Origin: Verrucomicrobiota bacterium
Lineage (GTDB): Bacteria; Verrucomicrobiota; Verrucomicrobiia; Limisphaerales; PALSA-1396
Assembly (NCBI GenBank): GCA_016200005.1
Contig: JACQFP010000054.1
Span: 1-39,250, forward strand
Reading direction: 5' to 3'
Length of the DNA stretch: 39,250 nt
The notes beneath the pieces were generated by a model, which saw only the letters and a program-made list of their open reading frames with translations, was not told the DNA's origin and ran no database searches. Positions 9,394 through 21,300 of the stretch are shown here, in pieces; within the stretch, counting starts at the first letter, position 1; the number at the start of each line of letters is the position of its first letter. The translations under genes and the position numbers were made by a program.

Positions 9394-9421
9394 AAGGGGC
9401 GGTTCGCAAGAACCGCCCCTT
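9394..9421. terminator. Bidirectional hairpin terminator between the MFS genes and dnaE
   Basis: A perfect 11-bp stem (AAGGGGCGGTT / AACCGCCCCTT) with loop CGCAAG. It lies 18 bp after the plus-strand MFS stop and 49 bp after the minus-strand dnaE stop, where two converging transcripts would end. The flanking T-runs are short. Confidence 0.8.
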
Positions 9422-9470
9422 CCCGCTTTTGTGAGAAAAGGATTTCGTGAGGGCGCTCGCGAACGCTGAA

Positions 9471-12400
9471 TCATTCGTCCCCTGCTCCAGCATCGTCTTT
9501 TCTGCCCCACCGGCGTTGGTTGCGTTCCGGCAGTGACGTGTCCACTTTGGCGTAATAAGTCTCTTCGCCGAATCGTTCGTCTGCGGCCTGCTGCAATTGC
9601 GGCGACGGCGTCACGGAAAACTTCTCGTGCGTTTCGATGAAGATGATTTCGCCGCCGGGCCTCATCAGGCAGAGGAACAACGGACATTTGCCCGGATGCG
9701 CTGCCACCAGTTCACGAACTGACTCCAGTTGTTCCGGCGTCAAATGCGCGGTGTGCAGGCGCAGATGCACCTGCTTCGTATAGCGGCGGGGCGCTTCCTC
9801 CAGGGACATGATTTCTTGCGGAAAGATCTTTAATTTATCTTCGCTGGTGTTCACTTCCCCAACCACGAGGATGGCTTTGTTCGTCACCAGCAGTTCGCGG
9901 TGCTTGTCGTAGTTATCGTTCGTGCAGAGCACCTGCACCGACCCAGCCAAATCCTCCAGTGTCACCATCGCATACGGCTTGTTGTTTTTTTTGGAGACGC
10001 CATTTTGCACCGCGGCGATCAGCCCGCCAATGCGCGTCAGCGTCCGGTTTGCTAGCGACGACAGCGTCGCGGTATTGGCGAGCGTGTACTTTTCAAGAAT
10101 GGGAACATAGGGCGTGAGCGGATGACCCGTGACGTAAAAACCCAACAACTCCTTTTCGTGCGCGAGCAGTTCGTTCTGTGGCCATTCGGACAATTTGCTG
10201 ATCGATTCGGGCATTGAGGTCGCCCTCTCCTCCAAAGCGCCGAACAGCGACGACTGCCCGCGCGCCCGGTCGTGCGCGTTGCTTGCCGCCCGTGCCAGCG
10301 TGCGCTCAACTTGCGCGAACAACGTCGCACGGGTCTCGCCAAAGCTGTCGCACGCGCCGGATTTAATGAGCGCTTCGAGCACTTTGCGGTTGACGGTGCG
10401 GGTATCGACCCGTTCGCACAGGTCGGAAAGCGAATTGAACTTACCGCCGTCGCGTCGCGCTTTCAAAATGCTTTCGACGGCGATTTCGCCCACGCCTTTG
10501 ATGGCGGCCAGTCCGAAGCGGATGGCTTGCCCCTCACCCGACTTCGTCACCCTCTCCCCCTCCGATGAGGAGAGGGATGGGGTGAGGGAGACGTTTGACA
10601 GCCGTGCTTGCAGCGGGGCCGCCGCCGGCGCGAAGTGGACCTGGCTTTCGTTCACGTCCGGCCCCAAGACTTCGATGCCCAACGTGCGCGCTTCATTGAT
10701 GAATTGACTGAGCTTGGCCGTGTCGCTCATGTCGTTGGTCAACATGGCGCAGAGAAACTCAACCGGATAATTCGCCTTCAGATAAGCCGTTTGATAAGCA
10801 ACAATCGCGTAGGCCGCGGCGTGCGATTTGTTGAAGCCATAACCCGCAAATTTTTCCAGCAAATCGAAAATGCGGTTCGCTTTCGCGGCCGGGATGTTGT
10901 TGAGTTTGGCGCAACCTTTGACAAACGTGTCGCGCTGCTTCTGCATCTCTTCGACCTTCTTCTTGCCCATCGCGCGCCGCAGCACGTCGGCGGCGCCAAG
11001 CGAATAGCCGGCCAGCAGTTGCGCCGCCTGCATCACCTGTTCCTGGTAAATCAACACGCCGTAGGTTTCGCGCGAGATTGGTTCGAGCAACGGATGCTCG
11101 TATTCAATCTTCACCTCGCCGTGGCGTCGCTTGATGAATTCCGGGATCAGTTCCATCGGGCCGGGACGATAGAGCGCGATCAACGCGGTGATGTGTTCGA
11201 TCGAACTGATTTGAAACTTGCGGCACAGGTCGCGCATGCCGCCGGATTCCAGTTGGAAGATGCCGAGCGTGTTGGCCTTGTTCAGCAGATCGTAGGTTTT
11301 GGCGTCGTCGAGCGGAAGATTTTCAATCGGCACGTCAATACCCTTGGTCTGCTTGACCATTTCGCAGGTATTGCGGATGACGGTCAGGGTTTTCAGTCCA
11401 AGGAAATCCATCTTCAACAGGCCGAGGTCGCCGACCGGCCCCATGGCGTATTGGGTGACGATGGCGCCGCTTTCGTCCTGCTTGAGGGGCAGCAGATTCA
11501 CGAGTGGCTGGTCGCCGATGACGACGCCGGCGGCGTGCACGGAAGCGTTGCGCGTCAGGTCTTCGAGGATGAACGCGTTATCGATGAGTTCGCGAGTGGT
11601 TTCCTCAGTGTCGTAAGCCTGTTTAAGTTCGGGCGATTGCTTGAGCGCCTTCTCCAGCGTCATCTTCAAATCGAAAGGAATCATCTTGGCCAGCCGATCG
11701 CACTCGGCGTAACTCAGGCCCATCACGCGCCCCACGTCGCGCACGACCGACTTCGCGCCCATCGTGCCGAAGGTGATGATTTGAGCGACGGCATCGCGGC
11801 CGTATTTTTGCCGGACGTATTCGATGACATCAGCGCGGCGGTCGTCGGCGAAATCGATGTCGATATCGGGCGGGTTGACGCGCTCGAGATTGAGAAAGCG
11901 CTCGAACAGCAGGCCGTAACGAATCGGGTCCACGTTGGAAATCTCCAGGAGATAGGCGACGATCGAACCGGCGGCCGAACCGCGCGCCACGCAGGAGATT
12001 CCCTTGCTGTGGCCGTAACGGACAAAATCACCAACGATCAAAAAGTAACTCGTGAATCCGGATTCCTGGATCACCTTCAGTTCCGATTGCACGCGGTCAA
12101 TGACGGCTTGAACGGCTTTTGCGACTTCCGGTTGCTTGAGTCGTGGCTCGTCGGCAATCCTCTCACCCGTCCTCGCGGCCACCCTCTCCCCATCCGATGG
12201 GGAGAGGGACGGGGTGAGGGGTTCCTGCATGTCAAAAGTCGGCAGCCGCGTCGGATCATCCACCCGTTCTACGATAAATTCATGCCCCTCCGCCCGCGCG
12301 TGGATGCCGTAGCGCCGGCGGAGTCCCTCGGCGAGCAAATGGCGGAGATAACCTTCACGTGTGAAATGTTCTGGTGGATGAAAGACGGGATAATGTAATT

Positions 12401-13256
12401 TGCCAAACTCAATTTCCACATTGCACTTCTCCGCAACCTCCAGCGTGTTCGTCACCGCATCGGGCACTTCACTGAACCTCGCCTTCATTTCCTCGGCGGA
12501 CCGCAGATAAAACTGCTCCGGCACATAGCCCGCGCTCATGCGTTTAGGATCGCTCAGCAGAGATTGTGTGCCGATGCAGACAAGGCAGTCGTGCGCGTGC
12601 GAGTGGCTTTTCTCAACGTAATGAACGTCGTTGGTCGCCACGAGTTTCAAACCAAACTCCTTCGCCCACCCGATGAGATGGCGGTTGACTTTGGCCTGCT
12701 CCGGAATGCCGTGGTTCTGCAGTTCGAGATAAAAATTCTCCGGGCCGAAAACCTGTTTGAACCAGTCAATGGTTTCGCGCGCCTTGTCGAGTTGATCCTT
12801 CGCAATGAGATCGGGGATTTCGCTGGCCAGACAACCGGAAAGAACAATCAACCCTTCCTTGTGCGCGGCCAGGAGCTCCTTGTCGATGCGCGGCTTGTAG
12901 TAGTAGCCCTCCAGATGCGCCGCGGTGCCAAGTCGGATGAGACTTTGATAGCCGGCTTCGTCGCGCGCCAGCAACAGGAGGTGGTTATAAACGTCGCGGC
13001 TGCCGCTCGAGGTTTTTTTCTCGAAACGACTGCCAGGCGCGACATAAACCTCGCAGCCGATGATGGGTTTGATGCCTTTTTCGCGGGCGGCCTTGTAAAA
13101 ATCAATCGCGCCGTAAAGCACGCCGTGGTCGGTGATGGCCAGCGCCGGGAACTTCAGGTCGTGCGCCTTGTCCATCAACCGGTCGAGCCGGCAGGCGCCA
13201 TCGAGCAGCGAATACTCGGTGTGCAAATGGAGATGAACAAACTCAGCGTGCGCCAT
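9471..13256 (-). CDS. dnaE: DNA polymerase III alpha subunit, with two in-frame repeat inserts
   Basis: Replicative DNA polymerase catalytic subunit. Domain order: N-terminal PHP domain ('FVHLHLHTEYSLLDGACRLDRL'); C-family polymerase core with 'RGSAAGSIVAYLLEI' and the active-site 'PDIDIDF' (Asp464, Asp466, Asp468); helix-hairpin-helix region; and a C-terminal OB fold ('TRIGGLIAAVQNGVSKKN'). At 1261 aa it is about 100 residues longer than E. coli DnaE (1160). Part of this is two insertions coded by palindromic repeats, around residues 342-366 ('LTPSLSPSDGERVAARTGER') and 889-909 ('LTPSLSSSEGERVTKSGEG'). Both keep the frame open. Start ATG 13256. The product is probably functional. Confidence 0.95.
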   Translation of the reverse strand: MAHAEFVHLHLHTEYSLLDGACRLDRLMDKAHDLKFPALAITDHGVLYGAIDFYKAAREKGIKPIIGCEVYVAPGSRFEKKTSSGSRDVYNHLLLLARDEAGYQSLIRLGTAAHLEGYYYKPRIDKELLAAHKEGLIVLSGCLASEIPDLIAKDQLDKARETIDWFKQVFGPENFYLELQNHGIPEQAKVNRHLIGWAKEFGLKLVATNDVHYVEKSHSHAHDCLVCIGTQSLLSDPKRMSAGYVPEQFYLRSAEEMKARFSEVPDAVTNTLEVAEKCNVEIEFGKLHYPVFHPPEHFTREGYLRHLLAEGLRRRYGIHARAEGHEFIVERVDDPTRLPTFDMQEPLTPSLSPSDGERVAARTGERIADEPRLKQPEVAKAVQAVIDRVQSELKVIQESGFTSYFLIVGDFVRYGHSKGISCVARGSAAGSIVAYLLEISNVDPIRYGLLFERFLNLERVNPPDIDIDFADDRRADVIEYVRQKYGRDAVAQIITFGTMGAKSVVRDVGRVMGLSYAECDRLAKMIPFDLKMTLEKALKQSPELKQAYDTEETTRELIDNAFILEDLTRNASVHAAGVVIGDQPLVNLLPLKQDESGAIVTQYAMGPVGDLGLLKMDFLGLKTLTVIRNTCEMVKQTKGIDVPIENLPLDDAKTYDLLNKANTLGIFQLESGGMRDLCRKFQISSIEHITALIALYRPGPMELIPEFIKRRHGEVKIEYEHPLLEPISRETYGVLIYQEQVMQAAQLLAGYSLGAADVLRRAMGKKKVEEMQKQRDTFVKGCAKLNNIPAAKANRIFDLLEKFAGYGFNKSHAAAYAIVAYQTAYLKANYPVEFLCAMLTNDMSDTAKLSQFINEARTLGIEVLGPDVNESQVHFAPAAAPLQARLSNVSLTPSLSSSEGERVTKSGEGQAIRFGLAAIKGVGEIAVESILKARRDGGKFNSLSDLCERVDTRTVNRKVLEALIKSGACDSFGETRATLFAQVERTLARAASNAHDRARGQSSLFGALEERATSMPESISKLSEWPQNELLAHEKELLGFYVTGHPLTPYVPILEKYTLANTATLSSLANRTLTRIGGLIAAVQNGVSKKNNKPYAMVTLEDLAGSVQVLCTNDNYDKHRELLVTNKAILVVGEVNTSEDKLKIFPQEIMSLEEAPRRYTKQVHLRLHTAHLTPEQLESVRELVAAHPGKCPLFLCLMRPGGEIIFIETHEKFSVTPSPQLQQAADERFGEETYYAKVDTSLPERNQRRWGRKDDAGAGDE
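10531..10588. repeat. Palindromic repeat inside dnaE, copy B
   Basis: Outer arms CCCTCACCC (10531-10539) / GGGTGAGGG (10580-10588); inner arms CCCTCTCC (10550-10557) / GGAGAGGG (10569-10576). Read on the minus strand in the dnaE frame it gives 'LTPSLSSSEGERV'. Same architecture as the copies at 12162-12218 and 15326-15387. Confidence 0.85.
12162..12218. repeat. Palindromic repeat inside dnaE, copy A
   Basis: Outer arms CTCACCC (12162-12168) / GGGTGAG (12212-12218); inner arms CCCTCTCCCC (12182-12191) / GGGGAGAGGG (12199-12208) with a 7-nt loop. Translated in the dnaE frame as 'LTPSLSPSDGERV', nearly the same peptide as copy B. Confidence 0.85.
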
Positions 13257-13342
13257 GCCTTGAAATATGAGGCGTCACGCACAGAGTTCATAGTTCAAAG
13301 TTAATCGTGAATGAGCGTGCTTTGACGGAGACAGTAGCAAAA

Positions 13343-14293
13343 TCATTCCCCCGTCCTCTCCCGGTAAAACTCCAGCGTCCGGCGCAAGCCTTCCTGCCAG
13401 TTCACTTTGATCTCGTAATTCAGTTCGCGCCTGGCCGCGGAAATATCCGCCAGTGAATTTCGAACATCGCCGACGCGTGCGGGTTCAAATCGCGGTCGCA
13501 ATTGTTGTCCAGTTAAACGATTCAACTCGTCCACGAGTTGCAACAAGGAAATGCTTTGGCCGCCAGCCACATTGAATACCTTGCCGGCAACCTTCTCTGA
13601 CGGCGCTTCCGCTGCGAGAAGGTTCGCCGTCACAGCGTTTTCGACGTAAGTGAAATCGCGCGATTGTTGGCCGTCGCCAAAAATCGTCGGCGCCTGGCCG
13701 GTCAGCATGACGGTACAGAATTTGGCGATTACGCCGGAGTAAGGCGAGTCGAAGGCCTGGCGCGGACCGAACACGTTGAAGTAGCGCAGGCCCACGGTTT
13801 CCAGACCGTAAAGTTGATGGAAAAGCTGGCCGTATTTTTCCGACGCATACTTTTGCAGCGCGTACGGCGAGAGCGGGTTGGGCGGAAGTGATTCATGTTT
13901 CTTTGGTGCGTCCGAATCGCCGTAGATGGCGGAAGAGGAGGCGAACAAAAACCGTTTCACCTTTGCGTCGCACGCGGCCACCAGCAGTTTCAACGTGCCG
14001 TCGAGATTTTGCCGGTGGCTCTCCAGCGGCTCCTTCACTGAACGGGGCACGGACGGCATGGCGCCCTCGTGAAACACCCAGTCGCAACCCGGCAACAGTT
14101 TGCGGATCAAAACGTCGTCATTGAAATCGCCCTCGACAAATTCAACGGCGTCGCCCGCGCGCCGCCAGTCCAGGTTGGCGGTTTTCCCGAGGCTGAGGTT
14201 GTCCAGCACGATGACCTGCGCGCCGCGACGACACAGCGCCTCGGCCAGATGCGAACCGATGAATCCCGCGCCACCAGTGACGAAGGCTTTCAT
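13343..14293 (-). CDS. NAD-dependent nucleotide-sugar epimerase/dehydratase (GalE-like SDR)
   Basis: An extended short-chain dehydrogenase of 316 aa. The NAD-binding '[10 protein letters not shown]' is at residues 6-15, the catalytic Ser region '[11 protein letters not shown]' at 117-127, and the Y144xxxK148 pair sits in 'SPYALQK'. '[11 protein letters not shown]' and '[18 protein letters not shown]' are typical of UDP-glucose/UDP-GlcNAc 4-epimerases and 4,6-dehydratases. It should interconvert nucleotide sugars for cell-surface glycans. It lies 86 bp downstream of dnaE on the same strand and is divergent from the DUF1080 gene (219-bp gap). Exact substrate is unresolved; UDP-glucose or UDP-GlcNAc is most likely. 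Confidence 0.88.
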
Positions 14294-14512
14294 GCTTTGG
14301 AAAGAGTGGGTGCAGGATTGGTCATCTCAAGGTTTAGAAAGAGATCGACTGACATTGGCGCGGAGCTTAACAGGATCGTTGATCAGAGCGAGTTTTTTGT
14401 GCGGCACCCGGCGCCATCATCAACCGCGAGTTTTTCATTGCGATTGGCCAGCTTTTTATTGAAGTATCGGCCGACAATAATCGAACAACCAAAATCGTTA
14501 TTCTTTAATTCC

Positions 14513-15265
14513 ATGAAAAGCATCACCTTCAGAAATTGGCTCACTCCCATCACCTTGATGATCGCCGCGTTTGCCTGCGCCTCGTTATCCAGCTTTGCTG
14601 CCGACAGCGGCGAGATTCCACCACCAAAGGATGAACCCAAAATCATCGATCCTGGCCCGGTCAGCGGCCCGCCTTCGGATGCCATCGTGTTGTTCGACGG
14701 TAAAGATCTGTCGAAGTGGAAGAACGACAAGGGCGGCGATGCCAAGTGGGTGGTGGAAGACGGCGCGGCGACCGTCAACGGCACTGGCAGCATCCTCACC
14801 CGGGAGGAGTTTGGTGATTGCCAGTTGCACGTGGAATGGGCAACTCCGGCCGTCGTCAAGGGCTCGGGCCAAGGACGCGGCAACAGCGGTGTCTATTTGC
14901 AAAGCCGTTATGAGATTCAGGTGCTCGATTCCTACGACAACAAGACCTATTTCCACGGCCAGGCGGGCGGAGTTTACAAACAGTATGCGCCGCTGGTGAA
15001 CGCCTGCCGCAAGCCAGGCGAGTGGCAAAGCTACGACATCGTTTATCACGGGCCGCGGTTCGACGCCGATGGCAAAGTGACGCAACGCGCCACCGCCACC
15101 GTTCTCCACAACGGCGTGTTGATCCAGGACCACGTGGAAATTCTGGGATCGACCAACCCCGCGGGCGCGCCGAAATACAGCGCGCATCCTTTGAAACAAC
15201 CGCTCCTGCTGCAGGATCACGGCAATCCAGTCCGTTACCGCAATATCTGGATCCGGCCGTTGTAA
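14513..15265 (+). CDS. Secreted DUF1080-family (3-keto-sugar hydrolase-like) protein
   Basis: A 250-aa protein. ATG 14513 is taken because it begins a clean signal peptide ('[20 protein letters not shown]', cleavage near 'SSFAADSG'), whereas the longer upstream frame has no such character and overlaps the divergent promoter region. The mature part is one DUF1080 concanavalin-A-like β-sandwich: '[13 protein letters not shown]', '[10 protein letters not shown]', '[20 protein letters not shown]', '[16 protein letters not shown]' and the terminal '[12 protein letters not shown]'. Some members of this family hydrolyse 3-keto-disaccharides or glycosides; most are uncharacterised. A periplasmic role in sugar breakdown is inferred. 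A palindromic element begins about 35 bp downstream. Confidence 0.87.
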
Positions 15266-15301
15266 GCGGCAGGGAAAAATGTTAGAGCGGTTACCAACAT
15301 A

Positions 15302-15400
15302 AATTTCCGGATCGAAATACGCAAACCCCTCACCCGGCCTTCGGCCACCCTCTCCCCATCGGATGGGGAGAGGGATGGGGTGAGGGGCCATCCGGAAATT
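15302..15400. repeat. Nested palindromic repeat, intergenic copy C
   Basis: Three inverted repeats nest. Outermost AATTTCCGGAT (15302-15312) / ATCCGGAAATT (15390-15400) is a perfect 11-bp pair. Inside it, CCCCTCACCC (15326-15335) pairs with GGGTGAGGGG (15378-15387). The core CCCTCTCCCCATC (15348-15360) pairs with GATGGGGAGAGGG (15362-15374). A small GGC-CTTC-GGCC hairpin lies at 15336-15346. The two inner layers match the dnaE copies; the outer layer is unique to this copy. Confidence 0.85.
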
Positions 15401-15483
15401 CCTTTTGGCAAACAGTATAGTCACCGAGGTCGCGAGGCGGACGGCAGTCCGTTTCCCACGTCGGCACCGCCTGCACCGGAACT

Positions 15484-15512
15484 CCCTCTCCTCTATGGAA
15501 TGGAGGAGAGGG
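15484..15512. repeat. Palindrome with 10-bp arms
   Basis: CCCTCTCCTC (15484-15493), 9-nt loop, GAGGAGAGGG (15503-15512). Shares the CCCTCTCC arm with the neighbouring repeats. Confidence 0.75.
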
Positions 15513-15583
15513 CCGGGAAGAGGAGGAGCATTTCGACCAAGCTGGACGCGTCGCTCGGCCTCAGCGAATTGCCCTCTCCCCGA

Positions 15584-15674
15584 CCCTCTCCCACTCCTGT
15601 CTTGCCCCGTGGAATAAACGCTGCGGGAACTTCGGCAGCTACGATTGCTATTCCACGGGGCGAGTGGGAGAGGG
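15584..15674. repeat. Long nested palindrome with an asymmetric bulge
   Basis: Left arm CCCTCTCCCACTC (15584-15596) and GCCCCGTGGAAT (15604-15615) pair with ATTCCACGGGGC (15650-15661) and GAGTGGGAGAGGG (15662-15674): 25 bp in total, interrupted only by 7 unpaired nt on the left (15597-15603). The 34-nt interior contains a further GCTGC / GCAGC stem. Confidence 0.85.
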
Positions 15675-15771
15675 AGAAAACCTCGGGGGCAGTATCGAGA
15701 TGCACCGACATTGGAGGATTGCCAGTCAATCAGTTTGACTGCGGGATTGAGTTTCAGAAGTATCGCCCGAT

Positions 15772-16533
15772 ATGGACTGGATCACTCAACCCGAAATCTG
15801 GATCAGCCTGCTCACGCTGACGGTGCTCGAAATCATCCTGGGCATCGACAACATTGTTTTCATCTCCATCCTTGCGGGCAAACTGCCGGCGGCGCAACAA
15901 GCCAAAGCGCGGCAGACGGGCCTCAGTCTCGCGCTCATCACGCGCGTCCTGCTGCTGTGCGGACTGGCATTCATGGTCAAGCTCACCAAGCCGCTGTTCG
16001 AGATTCCCACGCTCGGAATTTTTCCTGAACCGCACGGAGTTTCAGGTCGTGACCTGATCCTCATCTGCGGTGGATTATTCCTGCTCTGGAAAAGCACGCA
16101 TGAAATTCATGACAAACTCGAAGGCGAAGACGGTGAAATATCCAGCCGGGTTGCGCCCAGGTTCGCCGCCACCGTCGTGCAGATTCTCCTGCTCGACATC
16201 GTATTCTCGCTGGACTCGGTCATCACCGCCGTCGGCATGGCCAGGCATCTGGGCGTGATGATCGCCGCCGTCATCATCGCACTGGTGTTCATGCTGTTCT
16301 TTGCCGGACGCATCAGCGATTTCATTCACAAGCATCCGTCGTTGAAAATGCTGGCGCTGAGTTTCCTGATGCTGATCGGTTGTGCGCTGGTGGCCGAAGG
16401 TTTCCACAAGGAAATCCCGAAGGGTTACATCTACTTCGCAATGGCCTTCTCCGTCGGCGTGGAAAGTCTCAACATCCGGATGCGCGCGAAGCAGAAGCCC
16501 GCACCGGTGGAATTGCACCAGCCGTATCGGTAA
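15772..16533 (+). CDS. TerC-family integral membrane protein
   Basis: A 253-aa inner-membrane protein with about seven hydrophobic segments. The two family signatures are present: 'LEIILGIDNIVFISILAGKLP' near the N-terminus (residues 18-38) and 'LLDIVFSLDSVITAVGMARH' in the middle, each with the paired acidic residues (GIDN, SLDS) expected to bind metal. TerC relatives export Mn2+ or help metallate exported proteins; tellurite resistance is a side phenotype. It is followed 96 bp later by fbp on the same strand. The upstream region lacks a visible Mn2+ riboswitch. Family call firm; metal-export role inferred. Confidence 0.9.
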   Translation: MDWITQPEIWISLLTLTVLEIILGIDNIVFISILAGKLPAAQQAKARQTGLSLALITRVLLLCGLAFMVKLTKPLFEIPTLGIFPEPHGVSGRDLILICGGLFLLWKSTHEIHDKLEGEDGEISSRVAPRFAATVVQILLLDIVFSLDSVITAVGMARHLGVMIAAVIIALVFMLFFAGRISDFIHKHPSLKMLALSFLMLIGCALVAEGFHKEIPKGYIYFAMAFSVGVESLNIRMRAKQKPAPVELHQPYR

Positions 16534-17656: not shown

Positions 17657-17752
17657 TCAAATGGCCAGCAGCAACTTCTTGATTTCCTTCAACCGCGCCT
17701 TGGCATCCCTCTTTATCAGGCGCGGAAACTTGCCGCCAAGTGCGATGAAATC
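17657..17752 (-). pseudogene. Orphan 3' end of mfd (duplicate C-terminus, 31 codons plus stop)
   Basis: Read on the minus strand, 17657-17752 encodes 'DFIALGGKFPRLIKRDAKAR' then 'LKEIKKLLLAI' and a stop. The true mfd C-terminus (18321-18416) reads 'DFITLGGKFPRLTKTDATAR' then 'LKEIKRLLLAI' and a stop. I count 16 nucleotide differences in 96 (83% identity), 8 of them silent, giving 26 of 31 identical residues with no indel. No helicase sequence precedes it, so it is a severed fragment. It lies on the far side of the YefM/YoeB pair, in the same orientation as mfd. The silent changes suggest it diverged while part of a working gene. Confidence 0.9.
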
Positions 17753-17756
17753 TCCG

Positions 17757-17786
17757 TTGACGGCAGGCGCATCTGGACATTATGCT
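17757..17786 (+). promoter_or_regulatory. Candidate promoter of the toxin-antitoxin operon
   Basis: TTGACG (17757-17762), 18-nt spacer, TATGCT (17781-17786). The expected start site, about 7 nt downstream, falls at or within 2 nt of the yefM ATG (17795), so the transcript may be leaderless. The promoter begins where the mfd-like fragment ends. Confidence 0.5.
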
Positions 17787-18320: not shown

Positions 18321-21300
18321 TCAAATCGCAAGCAGCAACCTCTTGATCTCCTTCAACCGCGCTGTGGCGTCCGTCTTGGTCAAGCGGGGGAACTTGCCGC
18401 CGAGCGTGATGAAATCGCGGTGGCGCGTCAGCATCAGTTTGCCTTCCTTGACTTCGATGGTGGTCACGGCTTTTTCGGCGGCGAGGATTTTCAATTCGGC
18501 GGTTTGCAGCAACAACTCAACCGGCGGTGGCAACGGACCAAAACGGTCGCGGAGTTCCTTTAGTAATGCGCCGAGCGCGGATTTGTCCGTGGCTTGGGCG
18601 AGCTTGCGGTAAATCTCGATGCGGTGCTGCGGTTCGGGGACGTAGTGGTGAGGCAGTGAAGCGTGAAACGTGAAACGCGATGCGTAATTCGCGGAGCCCG
18701 TTTCACCTGGCACGTCTTCCATCCCCAGAAAATCCAACGCCACATGAACCTCCACGCGCGGTTTGACCTTTTCACCCTTGAGCGACGCGACACTCTGTTT
18801 GAGCAACTGGCAGTAAAGCTCGAAGCCCACCGCCGTGATGTGACCGCTTTGTTCTGCGCCGAGCAAATTGCCCGCGCCGCGGATTTCCAGGTCGCGCATG
18901 GCGATTTTGAAACCGCTGCCCAGTGTCGAGTATTGTTTCAGGGCGCTGATGCGTTTGCGGGCGTCGCTCAAGAGCCCGGCGTGACGCGGGATCAGGAGAT
19001 AGGCGTATGCTTGATGTTTGTAGCGGCCCACGCGCCCGCGCAATTGGTAAAGATCGCTCAATCCGAATCGGTCGGCGCGGTCAATGATGATGGTGTTCGC
19101 GTTCGGGATATCGAGGCCGCTTTCAATGATCGTGGTCGAGAGCAGCACGTCGGCTTCGCCATTCACGAATTGCGTCATCACTTCTTCCAGGTCGTCGCTG
19201 TGCATCTGGCCGTGGCCCACCACGATGCGCGCGTGTGGCAGAAGGGTGCGGAGTTTCTGCGCCATGGTGTCAATGGTCAGCACGCGATTGTGCAGGAAGA
19301 ACACCTGGCCGCCGCGGTTCAACTCGCGCTGGATCGCGTCGCGGATGGTGCGCTCGTCGTATGGCGTGACGATGGTTTGCACCGGCAACCGGTCCTGCGG
19401 CGGCGTCTCAATGGTGCTCATGTCGCGCGCACCGGTGAGCGCGAGGTAAAGCGTGCGTGGAATCGGTGTGGCGGTGAGCGTGAGCACATCGACGAGCCGG
19501 CGCAGGAGCTTGAACTTCTCCTTATGCAAGACGCCGAAGCGCTGTTCCTCGTCGATGACCACCAGCCCCAGGTCCTTGAACAGAATATCGTCCTGCACCA
19601 ACCGATGCGTGCCGATGACGATGTCCACGGAACCCGCAGCCAGATCCTTCACGACGCGTTGTTGTGCGCGGCGGCTGCGGAAGCGCGAGAGCAACTCGAT
19701 CCGCACCGGATAATCCGCCATCCGCTCGCGAAAGACATTGAAATGCTGCTGTGCCAGCACGGTCGTCGGCACGAGCACGGCGACTTGTTTGCCATCCATC
19801 ACGGCCTTGAAGGCGGCGCGGATGGCGACTTCCGTTTTGCCGAAGCCGACGTCGCCGCAGATCAAGCGGTCCATCGGCTTGGCGCGTTCCATATCGGACT
19901 TGGTTTCGACGATGGCGCGCATCTGGTCGGGTGTTTCCTCGTAAATGAACGCACTCTCAAATTCGCGCTGCCAGGGAACATCGGACGCGAACGCGTGACC
20001 CGGCTGCAACTCGCGCGCGGCCTGAATCGCGAGCAACTCGCTGGCGACGTCGCGCACAGCCCGCTCGGCGTGAGCTTTGGCTTTCGCCCAACGCGTGCCG
20101 GTGAGCGTGTTGAGTGGCGGTCGCGCCTTGCCCGCGCCGACGTATTTGCTGACGAGATGCGCCTCGGAGACGGGCACGTATAGTTTCGGTGATTCGTCGC
20201 CATGATTGTTCGGAGCGAATTCGATCACCAAACATTCGGTTTCGGATTTCGGACTACCAACGCTCACGGGCAGCGATTTCAATCCGAGATACCGCCCGAT
20301 GCCGTGTTGGAGATGAACAACGTAATCGCCTACTTCCAGCTCCGTGAAATCAATGTCGAGCGCGGAGCGGGCGGCGATGGCGTGCGCGGACTTGAGCCGA
20401 CGCGGACGCTGGACTTTGTAGCGTCCGAAGATTTCTGCGTCGGTGACGACCACGAGCTTGCCGGCTTCGCAAATGAAACCGCGCGTGAGCGTGCCGAGAT
20501 GAGTCCGAAGTCCAGGGTCCAAAGTCCAAAGTTGTTCGCCTTCGGGCGGCTTTGAACTTTGGGCTTTCGATCTTGGACTCACTTCCTCCCATATCTCCGT
20601 GAAGCGTTGCCGCTCGCCTTCGTTGTTGCAGAAGACGTGGACGGCGAAGCCCTGGCGCAACCAACGATGGAGTTGCGCGAAGAACTCGCGGCGTTGCGCG
20701 TCGGCGATTTGTGGCTCGGGCACACGTTCACCCAGCGGGCGAAAGGCGTCGAGTGAAGCGAAGAGTGGAGAACCGATCTCCTGGTCTTGTTGGAGTTCAC
20801 GCTTCAGCATGTCCGGGGAGCAAGCTGAAGCTTGAACTCCAACAACACCGTCGCCCTCGCTCACTTCCAATCGCGTCATGCCGCGCGAGTCGAGGTCGGC
20901 GAGAATGTTCGCCCACCGGATGAAAAACGGATCGTCCGCCGGAGCTTGCCGGGCGTATTCATCCGCGCGCAATGTCAACTGCTCCGGCTCACAAAGGACA
21001 AAAATGGTTTCGCGCGGCAGGTAGTCCAACAAGGTTGAGAGTTGAGGGTTGAGGGTTGAGGATTGGGATTTTGAATCCAAGATTCCTCGCTTAAGAATTC
21101 CCAACTCCCCGCCCGGAGGCAAAGTGACAGACACGATTTCCGCCCGCGACAGTTGTGTAAGCGGATCAAAGTGGCGCAGCGATTCCAATTCATCGCCGAA
21201 AAATTCCAGCCGCACCGGCCACGGGCTGGAGAGGGGATAGACATCCAGAATGCCGCCGCGCAAAGCAATTTCACCCTTTTGCGTCACCTGCGCTTCCGGC

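Follow-up and report, generated by a model that had tools for sequence, protein, structure and literature searches.

A BoxC-like palindromic repeat lies in frame within dnaE and other genes of a Verrucomicrobiota genome

The replicative polymerase gene of a Verrucomicrobiota bacterium raises the question of how the same palindromic DNA comes to lie twice, in frame, inside an essential gene. The gene is part of a stretch of 39,250 nucleotides (contig JACQFP010000054.1 of assembly GCA_016200005.1; hereafter the window), in which dnaE was recognized from its open reading frame and Pfam matches at 9471–13256 on the minus strand. Its product, the DNA polymerase III alpha subunit (1261 aa), matches PHP, DNA_pol3_alpha, DNA_pol3_finger and HHH_6, plus an OB-fold, and the DnaE of a same-genus relative is 90% identical to it over the full length. 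An earlier note on this DNA had described two double-stem palindromes in frame in dnaE and a third between genes, all of which could be read directly from the sequence. Copy 1 (12158–12221) and copy 2 (10530–10588), with the element on the plus strand and the gene on the minus strand, scored 81.5 and 72.0 bits, respectively, in a covariance model; the intergenic copy 3 (15326–15387, plus strand) scored 94.5 bits and is the top-scoring copy of the genome.

The window copies are double-stem palindromes of 59–64 nt, and the predicted fold of all three has an outer stem (CCCCTCACCC/GGGTGAGGGG) around one long hairpin (CCCTCTCCCC/GGGGAGAGGG) and one short hairpin. Folding z-scores from 200 shuffles each were −3.98 for copy 1, −2.95 for copy 2 and −6.33 for copy 3, and none of the 200 shuffles was as stable as the native sequence in any of the three cases. 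The motif ACCCTCTCCC, with up to one mismatch, occurred nine times in the window, compared with 1.44 expected. An alignment of 26 copies had the same structure, with 21 pairs, three of them changed on both sides and many invariant. Longer outer inverted-repeat arms (CCAACATAAATTTCCGGAT ... ATCCGGAAATTCCTTTTGG) are seen in the sequence around copy 3 at 15294–15408; comparable arms accompany some of the copies between genes and few of those within genes, and a rough motif count placed both long arms at 11/38 intergenic versus 0/40 internal copies. The right outer arm was found nine times in the genome at up to three mismatches, and a narrower regular expression for the long arms matched three copies. 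A composite form was observed at three loci (L009, L030 and L162), in which two long hairpins about 90 nt apart share one CCCCTCACCC/GGGTGAGGGG outer pair, and the middle of this form is similar across the three. Rfam at gathering score gave no match in these loci or in L104; an Rfam identity for the window copies was discarded, the region 9400–15800 having returned seven sub-threshold miRNA matches only.

Both dnaE copies occupy variable parts of the protein. Copy 1 is read in frame as LTPSLSPSDGERV / PLTPSLSPSDGERVAARTGER (DnaE residues about 345–367) and lies in the length-variable linker that runs from the PHP match (8–182) to the polymerase-core match (from 380). Copy 2, read as LTPSLSSSEGERV / SLTPSLSSSEGERVTKSGEG (residues about 889–910), lies in a loop within the HHH_6 match (860–979), and the structure mapping proposed in the earlier note placed it in the unaligned gap between residues 880 and 884 of Taq DnaE (alignment to PDB 2hpi). 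A survey of 39 genomes found a DnaE match in 38, and 29 relatives were aligned, with both insert sites covered in 27 of them and site 1 alone in two. Both sites are loops of variable length among the aligned relatives. The insert peptides were absent from the DnaE of all 29 at the sites that each covers, so universal conservation of these segments, which had been named as evidence against an insertion, does not hold; likewise, the covariance model (E up to 0.1) gave no match to the element in the dnaE loci of these 29 relatives.

The strict core (CACCCTCTCCCC-N2-14-GGGGAGAGGG) occurred 73 times in the 6.54-Mb genome and a reversed-pattern control 0 times, which disposes of the other contrary outcome that had been named, a lack of further genomic copies. 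A covariance model built from the 26-copy alignment, with which 150 of 2879 candidates in the genome were scored, gave at least 147 matches; at least 93 of these reached 54 bits or more, all at distinct places, and 54 of the 147, scoring less, were excluded from classification. Coding and intergenic copies, whose tally the earlier note had proposed, were then separated by a codon-pair coding score, by which an internal copy has coding signal on both sides and one open frame: 40 of the 93 were internal, 38 intergenic, 12 at a gene start and 3 doubtful, the N-terminal and doubtful copies not being counted as internal. An either-side coding test in which an open frame was not required added three copies, in UvrB, a TIM-barrel isomerase-like protein and a kinase. 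The uniform version of this test gave 41/93 copies internal and intact, 0 broken and 52 outside, compared with 506 intact, 20 broken and 312 outside among 838 random 63-nt windows from the same regions. The two location methods had 38 copies in common, and their union comprised 43/93 copies in 42 genes, all 43 in frame, stop-free and with coding signal on both sides; no gene-breaking copy was found among the 93 classified in the host genome. Called genes made up 84.6% of the regions, and the density of the element in coding DNA was about 0.16 of that in non-coding DNA; the element is therefore depleted in genes, not excluded from them. A Pfam family was found in 37 of the 42 element-carrying genes, and the carriers include ValRS, TyrRS, MnmA, GatB, NAD synthase, TrpE and MutS, as well as two UvrA paralogues, UvrB, RecQ, an HrpB-type helicase and RtcB. 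Several carriers are genes of replication and repair (DnaE twice, two UvrA, UvrB, MutS and RecQ; L098, L147, L172 and L121).

Analysis of the reading frames revealed that the frame encoding LSPSDGER is open in 38/40 internal and 30/38 intergenic copies on one strand, and in 34/40 and 32/38, respectively, on the other; the corresponding numbers for the next frame are 33/40 and 34/38 on one strand and 22/40 and 30/38 on the other. Because intergenic copies, like intragenic ones, have two mostly open frames on each strand, openness is a property of the element. The suggestion that the element's own sequence keeps a frame free of stops thus stood, but not that there is one such frame, since two of three are mostly open on each strand. 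Among the 40 internal copies, 30 used the LSPSDGER frame, nine the next and one the third, a bias with p of about 0.0007 against the per-copy open-frame expectation. Use of the same frame twice in dnaE, from which the earlier note had argued, is weak evidence alone. The core is nearly symmetric and encodes LSPSDGER in the same phase on either strand, which would allow the element to flip with the frame kept intact.

Other host proteins gave a picture similar to that of DnaE. The element was absent at the same site in 15 relatives for MnmA, 13 usable relatives for MutS and 14 usable relatives for ValRS, and the covariance model agreed. In MnmA and ValRS, the loop of the same-genus genome G001 differs from that of the host in sequence as well as in length. 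Terminal inverted repeats are present; the other trait of a MITE, a target-site duplication, was not recognized by eye in the copy flanks or in the comparisons with G001, and no clean empty site came to light. A second ValRS loop, around residue 240, carries the element in G059 (L428) and a BoxC-like copy of 34.2 bits in G015 (L239), and is without the element in the host genome and G001; a faintly similar peptide is present at this loop in the host. In the ValRS gene of G004 (L242), a repeat-like, hairpin-forming sequence lies where the host has the element; it was unscored by the covariance model and, by eye, could be a degenerate relative.

As regards its kinship, the element was compared with BoxC, also called the PIT element or TM-ECO, a G/C-rich intrastrand triplex repeat of E. 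coli (PMC4666352). As in that repeat, the strand order is C-rich, G-rich and third G-rich (CCCTCNCCC / GGGNGAGGG / GGGNGAGGG), the second loop of the core is mostly 2–3 nt long, copy number varies among relatives, and inverted cores can be paired, here in the composite form. The same source gives the pattern CCCTCNCCC-N3-6-GGGNGAGGG-N3-GGGNGAGGG with one mismatched stem position allowed, and counts 3610 copies of the TM-ECO motif in 262 proteobacterial genomes (PMC4666352). The published pattern as written fitted 0/93 copies; 49/93 fitted when the first loop was widened to 3–9 nt, 59/93 when the second was also set to 2–3 nt, and 89/93 with both looser loops and up to two mismatches. No copy has the published first loop of 3–6 nt, because the first stem is longer here, and since none of the 93 copies fits as written, we call the element BoxC-like and not a strict BoxC member. 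Unlike BoxC, 89/93 copies have an extra CTCACCC-like arm at the 5′ side, and this arm was missing directly upstream of seven E. coli cores taken from five published MG1655 stretches. E. coli cores scored 15–27 bits in the covariance model, versus 54–94.5 bits for the 93 copies, and a BLAST search for an E. coli counterpart matched 14 of 5426 genomes, over 60% of the query at E 0.04.

The location of the copies differs as well. Holder et al. 2015 report 23 copies in MG1655, always intergenic (PMC4666352), whereas 43/93 copies are intragenic here (43/93 versus 0/23; Fisher p = 6e-6). The accessible part of another survey prints no location class for BoxC, which is how it denotes families without clear predominance (PMC2267715); reports on E. 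coli therefore do not fully agree. We found no report of BoxC/PIT-type elements within coding genes in open-licence titles and abstracts, which cover the literature in part. We take the element, which resembles BoxC/PIT/TM-ECO, for a protein-coding form of an already described type of repeat.

The earlier note had likened the palindromes to the RPE elements of Rickettsia, and with regard to behavior the comparison was borne out: these are in-frame palindromes in an essential gene of an apparently unrelated lineage, and RPEs (Ogata et al.) are likewise palindromes in frame within conserved genes that the protein tolerates, according to PMC2229807 and PMC3733652. The likeness ends with in-frame insertion, because the element itself resembles BoxC/PIT/TM-ECO and differs from RPEs in length and host. 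RPEs are 105–146 bp long and described from Rickettsia in PMC2229807, whereas the present element is about 60 nt long, has a Verrucomicrobiota host and recurs in records of several phyla, a distinction drawn by description and not by sequence. Among the named loci compared, the four best protein matches of the host genome are to records titled Verrucomicrobia (57–83% identity, one of them titled Akkermansia) and not to Rickettsia. Di Nocera et al. 2013 state that some GTAG/CGTC REPs are intragenic, replication and repair genes included, and name the uvrA genes of Opitutus terrae (Verrucomicrobia) and the dnaE of R. conorii (PMC3733652); a palindromic element in a DnaE gene was thus already on record from R. 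conorii, a precedent missing from the earlier note. Like these REPs, part of the present copies are intragenic, also in replication and repair genes; unlike them, the element is longer, has three stems and shows no clear RAYT association. Neither a GTAG nor a CGTC tag was seen at either end when the 26-copy alignment was inspected by eye. By the features tested, the element is neither an RPE nor a GTAG/CGTC REP.

The strict core was present in 12/141 genomes of the class, the host genome included. Among 11 chosen genomes, in each of which the best 150 candidates at most were scored, covariance-model matches numbered at least 13 in the same-genus G001, at least 1 in G023 and at least 105 in G128; copy number is patchy between related genomes. 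Near the best matches, intact intragenic copies amounted to 15/24 in G128, 7/17 in G133 and 6/16 in G059, and apparently frame-broken ones to 1/24, 0/17 and 1/16, respectively, for comparison with 20/838 broken among the random windows of the host genome. An exact 29-nt pattern of the element was found in at least 119 stretches from records of several phyla, under titles that include Verrucomicrobia, Geomonas/Geobacter, Alpha-, Beta- and Gammaproteobacteria, Acidobacteria, Planctomycetes, Bacteroidales and Chloroflexi. Many of these records are MAGs, in which contamination is possible; isolates with the pattern include Geomonas, Limnoglobus, Devosia, Xanthomonas and Pseudomonas. The pan-bacterial matches to the 29-nt pattern (at least 134) comprised 13 intragenic, 120 not intragenic and one at a contig edge, which was left out of the statistics; among the matches listed, 6/29 in records of Verrucomicrobia relatives and 7/104 in others were intragenic. 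In the host genome, 12/26 occurrences of the pattern were intragenic, by a coding model and thresholds that differ from those of the pan-bacterial test.

Several insertion sites are shared between genomes or genes, although these cases are incidental finds with no denominator. The TrpE site is common to the host genome, G010, G015 and G003 in one orientation and to a Verrucomicrobiota MAG (L266) in the flipped orientation; the GatB site is common to the host genome and G018, and the PheS site to G059 and G037. A kinase site is common to the host genome and G001, and to G059 with the element flipped, and three paralogous kinase genes of the host genome have a common site, one of them flipped. 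A shared nadE site in G001 was set aside as dubious, one flank only being matched. At the shared TrpE, GatB and PheS sites, the element DNA is conserved beyond the third codon positions of the host gene: third-position identity was 0.85–0.95 in the element versus 0.56–0.63 in the rest of TrpE, 0.90 versus 0.57 in GatB and 1.00 versus 0.63 in PheS. For the paralogous kinases it was 0.95 and 0.76 in the element versus 0.54, and for the host and G059 kinases 0.64 versus 0.40. The site shared by the host and G001 kinases exhibited weak extra conservation of the element (third-position identity 0.60 in the element and 0.48 elsewhere; nucleotide identity 0.65 and 0.64).

We consider it likely that the inserts belong to a dispersed, non-autonomous BoxC-like repeat that has spread as selfish or neutral DNA, is tolerated and translated in flexible loops, and is re-copied or flipped there. 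Its status as a dispersed repeat, its in-frame tolerance in loops and its intrinsic open frames are supported. Such a repeat would spread by a trans-acting or a replication/recombination route; gene-breaking insertions would be lost, and those in flexible loops would be tolerated and, judging from the frame, translated, each adding about 20 mostly hydrophilic residues. An element at a tolerant site would then persist, with recombination between it and other copies rewriting or flipping it; this could account for the near-consensus DNA and the orientation switches at shared sites; these sites may alternatively reflect recurrent insertion at a tolerant site or a DNA-level constraint. A bolder formulation, of a cross-phylum palindromic family that occupies fixed tolerant sites in essential proteins and whose copies are continually rewritten and flipped by recombination and evolve in concert, is conceivable and we put it forward tentatively; if it is true, the element copies change together as DNA, and the surrounding host gene follows a course of its own.

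The high third-position identity at the shared TrpE, GatB and PheS sites, together with the recurrence of the exact 29-nt stretch in several phyla, could also point to a host function at the DNA level, such as a binding site or a replication/nucleoid signal, that keeps the element as DNA within genes. We regard this as rather unlikely, given that copy number is erratic among relatives and that the aligned relatives lack the DnaE, MnmA, MutS and ValRS copies at the corresponding sites; moreover, the accessible text of PMC4666352 links the E. coli motif to no functional class of adjoining genes and cites neither promoter nor terminator activity for it. A REP-like identity, with a RAYT/Y1 tyrosine transposase as the mover, is unlikely too. 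Short dispersed palindromes would suit such a mover, and four Y1_Tnp (PF01797) genes of the host genome score above the curated cut-off, with a full copy 2.1 kb from one and a weak partial core 1.4 kb from another; this proximity neither supports nor excludes a transposase link. However, no full copy lies within the four Y1 loci and one of them contains a weak partial core, a scan of three of the four loci for close inverted repeats yielded one 14-nt palindrome, and the aligned element ends are without the REP tags, as described above. No transposase was tied to the element.

The preferred reading, of a tolerated repeat, also has to be weighed against explanations at the level of the product. 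Preference for one frame in 30/40 copies would be in line with a useful inserted peptide kept for protein function, but the peptide turns up in numerous unrelated proteins, read in more than one frame and from either orientation of the element, and third codon positions are conserved and not residues alone, which makes this quite improbable. Still harder to sustain is removal of the element before or during translation, in the manner of an intron or a bypass: the predicted three-way structure is stable and essential genes carry the element, but removal would make frame and stops irrelevant, and 41/41 intragenic copies had an intact, stop-free frame in the test without an open-frame requirement. 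An artefact of a fragmented assembly (87 contigs, and one G001 contig that matches the host genome on one side of the element only) is scarcely credible, because in 43 cases a single open gene spans both flanks, and five assemblies have the element at one and the same TrpE site.

BoxC-like repeats have so far been described mainly as intergenic, from enterobacteria and other proteobacteria; in the present genome a related element lies within genes, in frame, almost as frequently as outside them, and does so in core enzymes of translation, replication and repair. This raises the testable questions of how such a repeat spreads without an apparent transposase and how often flexible protein loops start as palindromic DNA. 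The longer second DnaE loops with stable hairpins give a hint on the latter. Among the aligned relatives, the gene's most stable window of 84 nt fell in the second loop in 8/11 cases where this loop is long (7/10 without the host genome), compared with 1/17 where it is short (Fisher p = 0.0004; 0.0009 without the host genome). The effect was weaker for the first loop, where 3/13 long loops ranked first (combined p = 0.008 without the host genome). Short second loops were also somewhat over-stable (combined p = 0.004), so the stability of the second loop is partly a neighborhood effect. The long DnaE loops of relatives gave no match to a simple regular expression for the element. The palindrome in the DnaE loop of G001 was found once by a strict pattern, and its status as a repeat is therefore not established. 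DnaE loops of several relatives (L045, L033, L039, L057 and L032) contain long palindromes or tandem repeats with a different sequence.

Further repeats were observed beside the element. Just past copy 3, a hairpin (CCCTCTCCTC.../...GAGGAGAGGG) lies at 15485–15525 (z −2.66), and at 15573–15676 an outer CCCTCTCCCACTC stem surrounds a second, different palindrome (z −6.88). The window also contains a 101-nt direct repeat, 82% identical, at 17657–17757 and 18321–18421, and an inverted repeat at 20783–20849 with 29-nt arms that are 90% complementary and 9 nt apart. In a P-type ATPase gene (L166), another palindrome (CACCCACCCCTGACCCCTCCCAGGAGGGG...) lies upstream of the element within the same gene.
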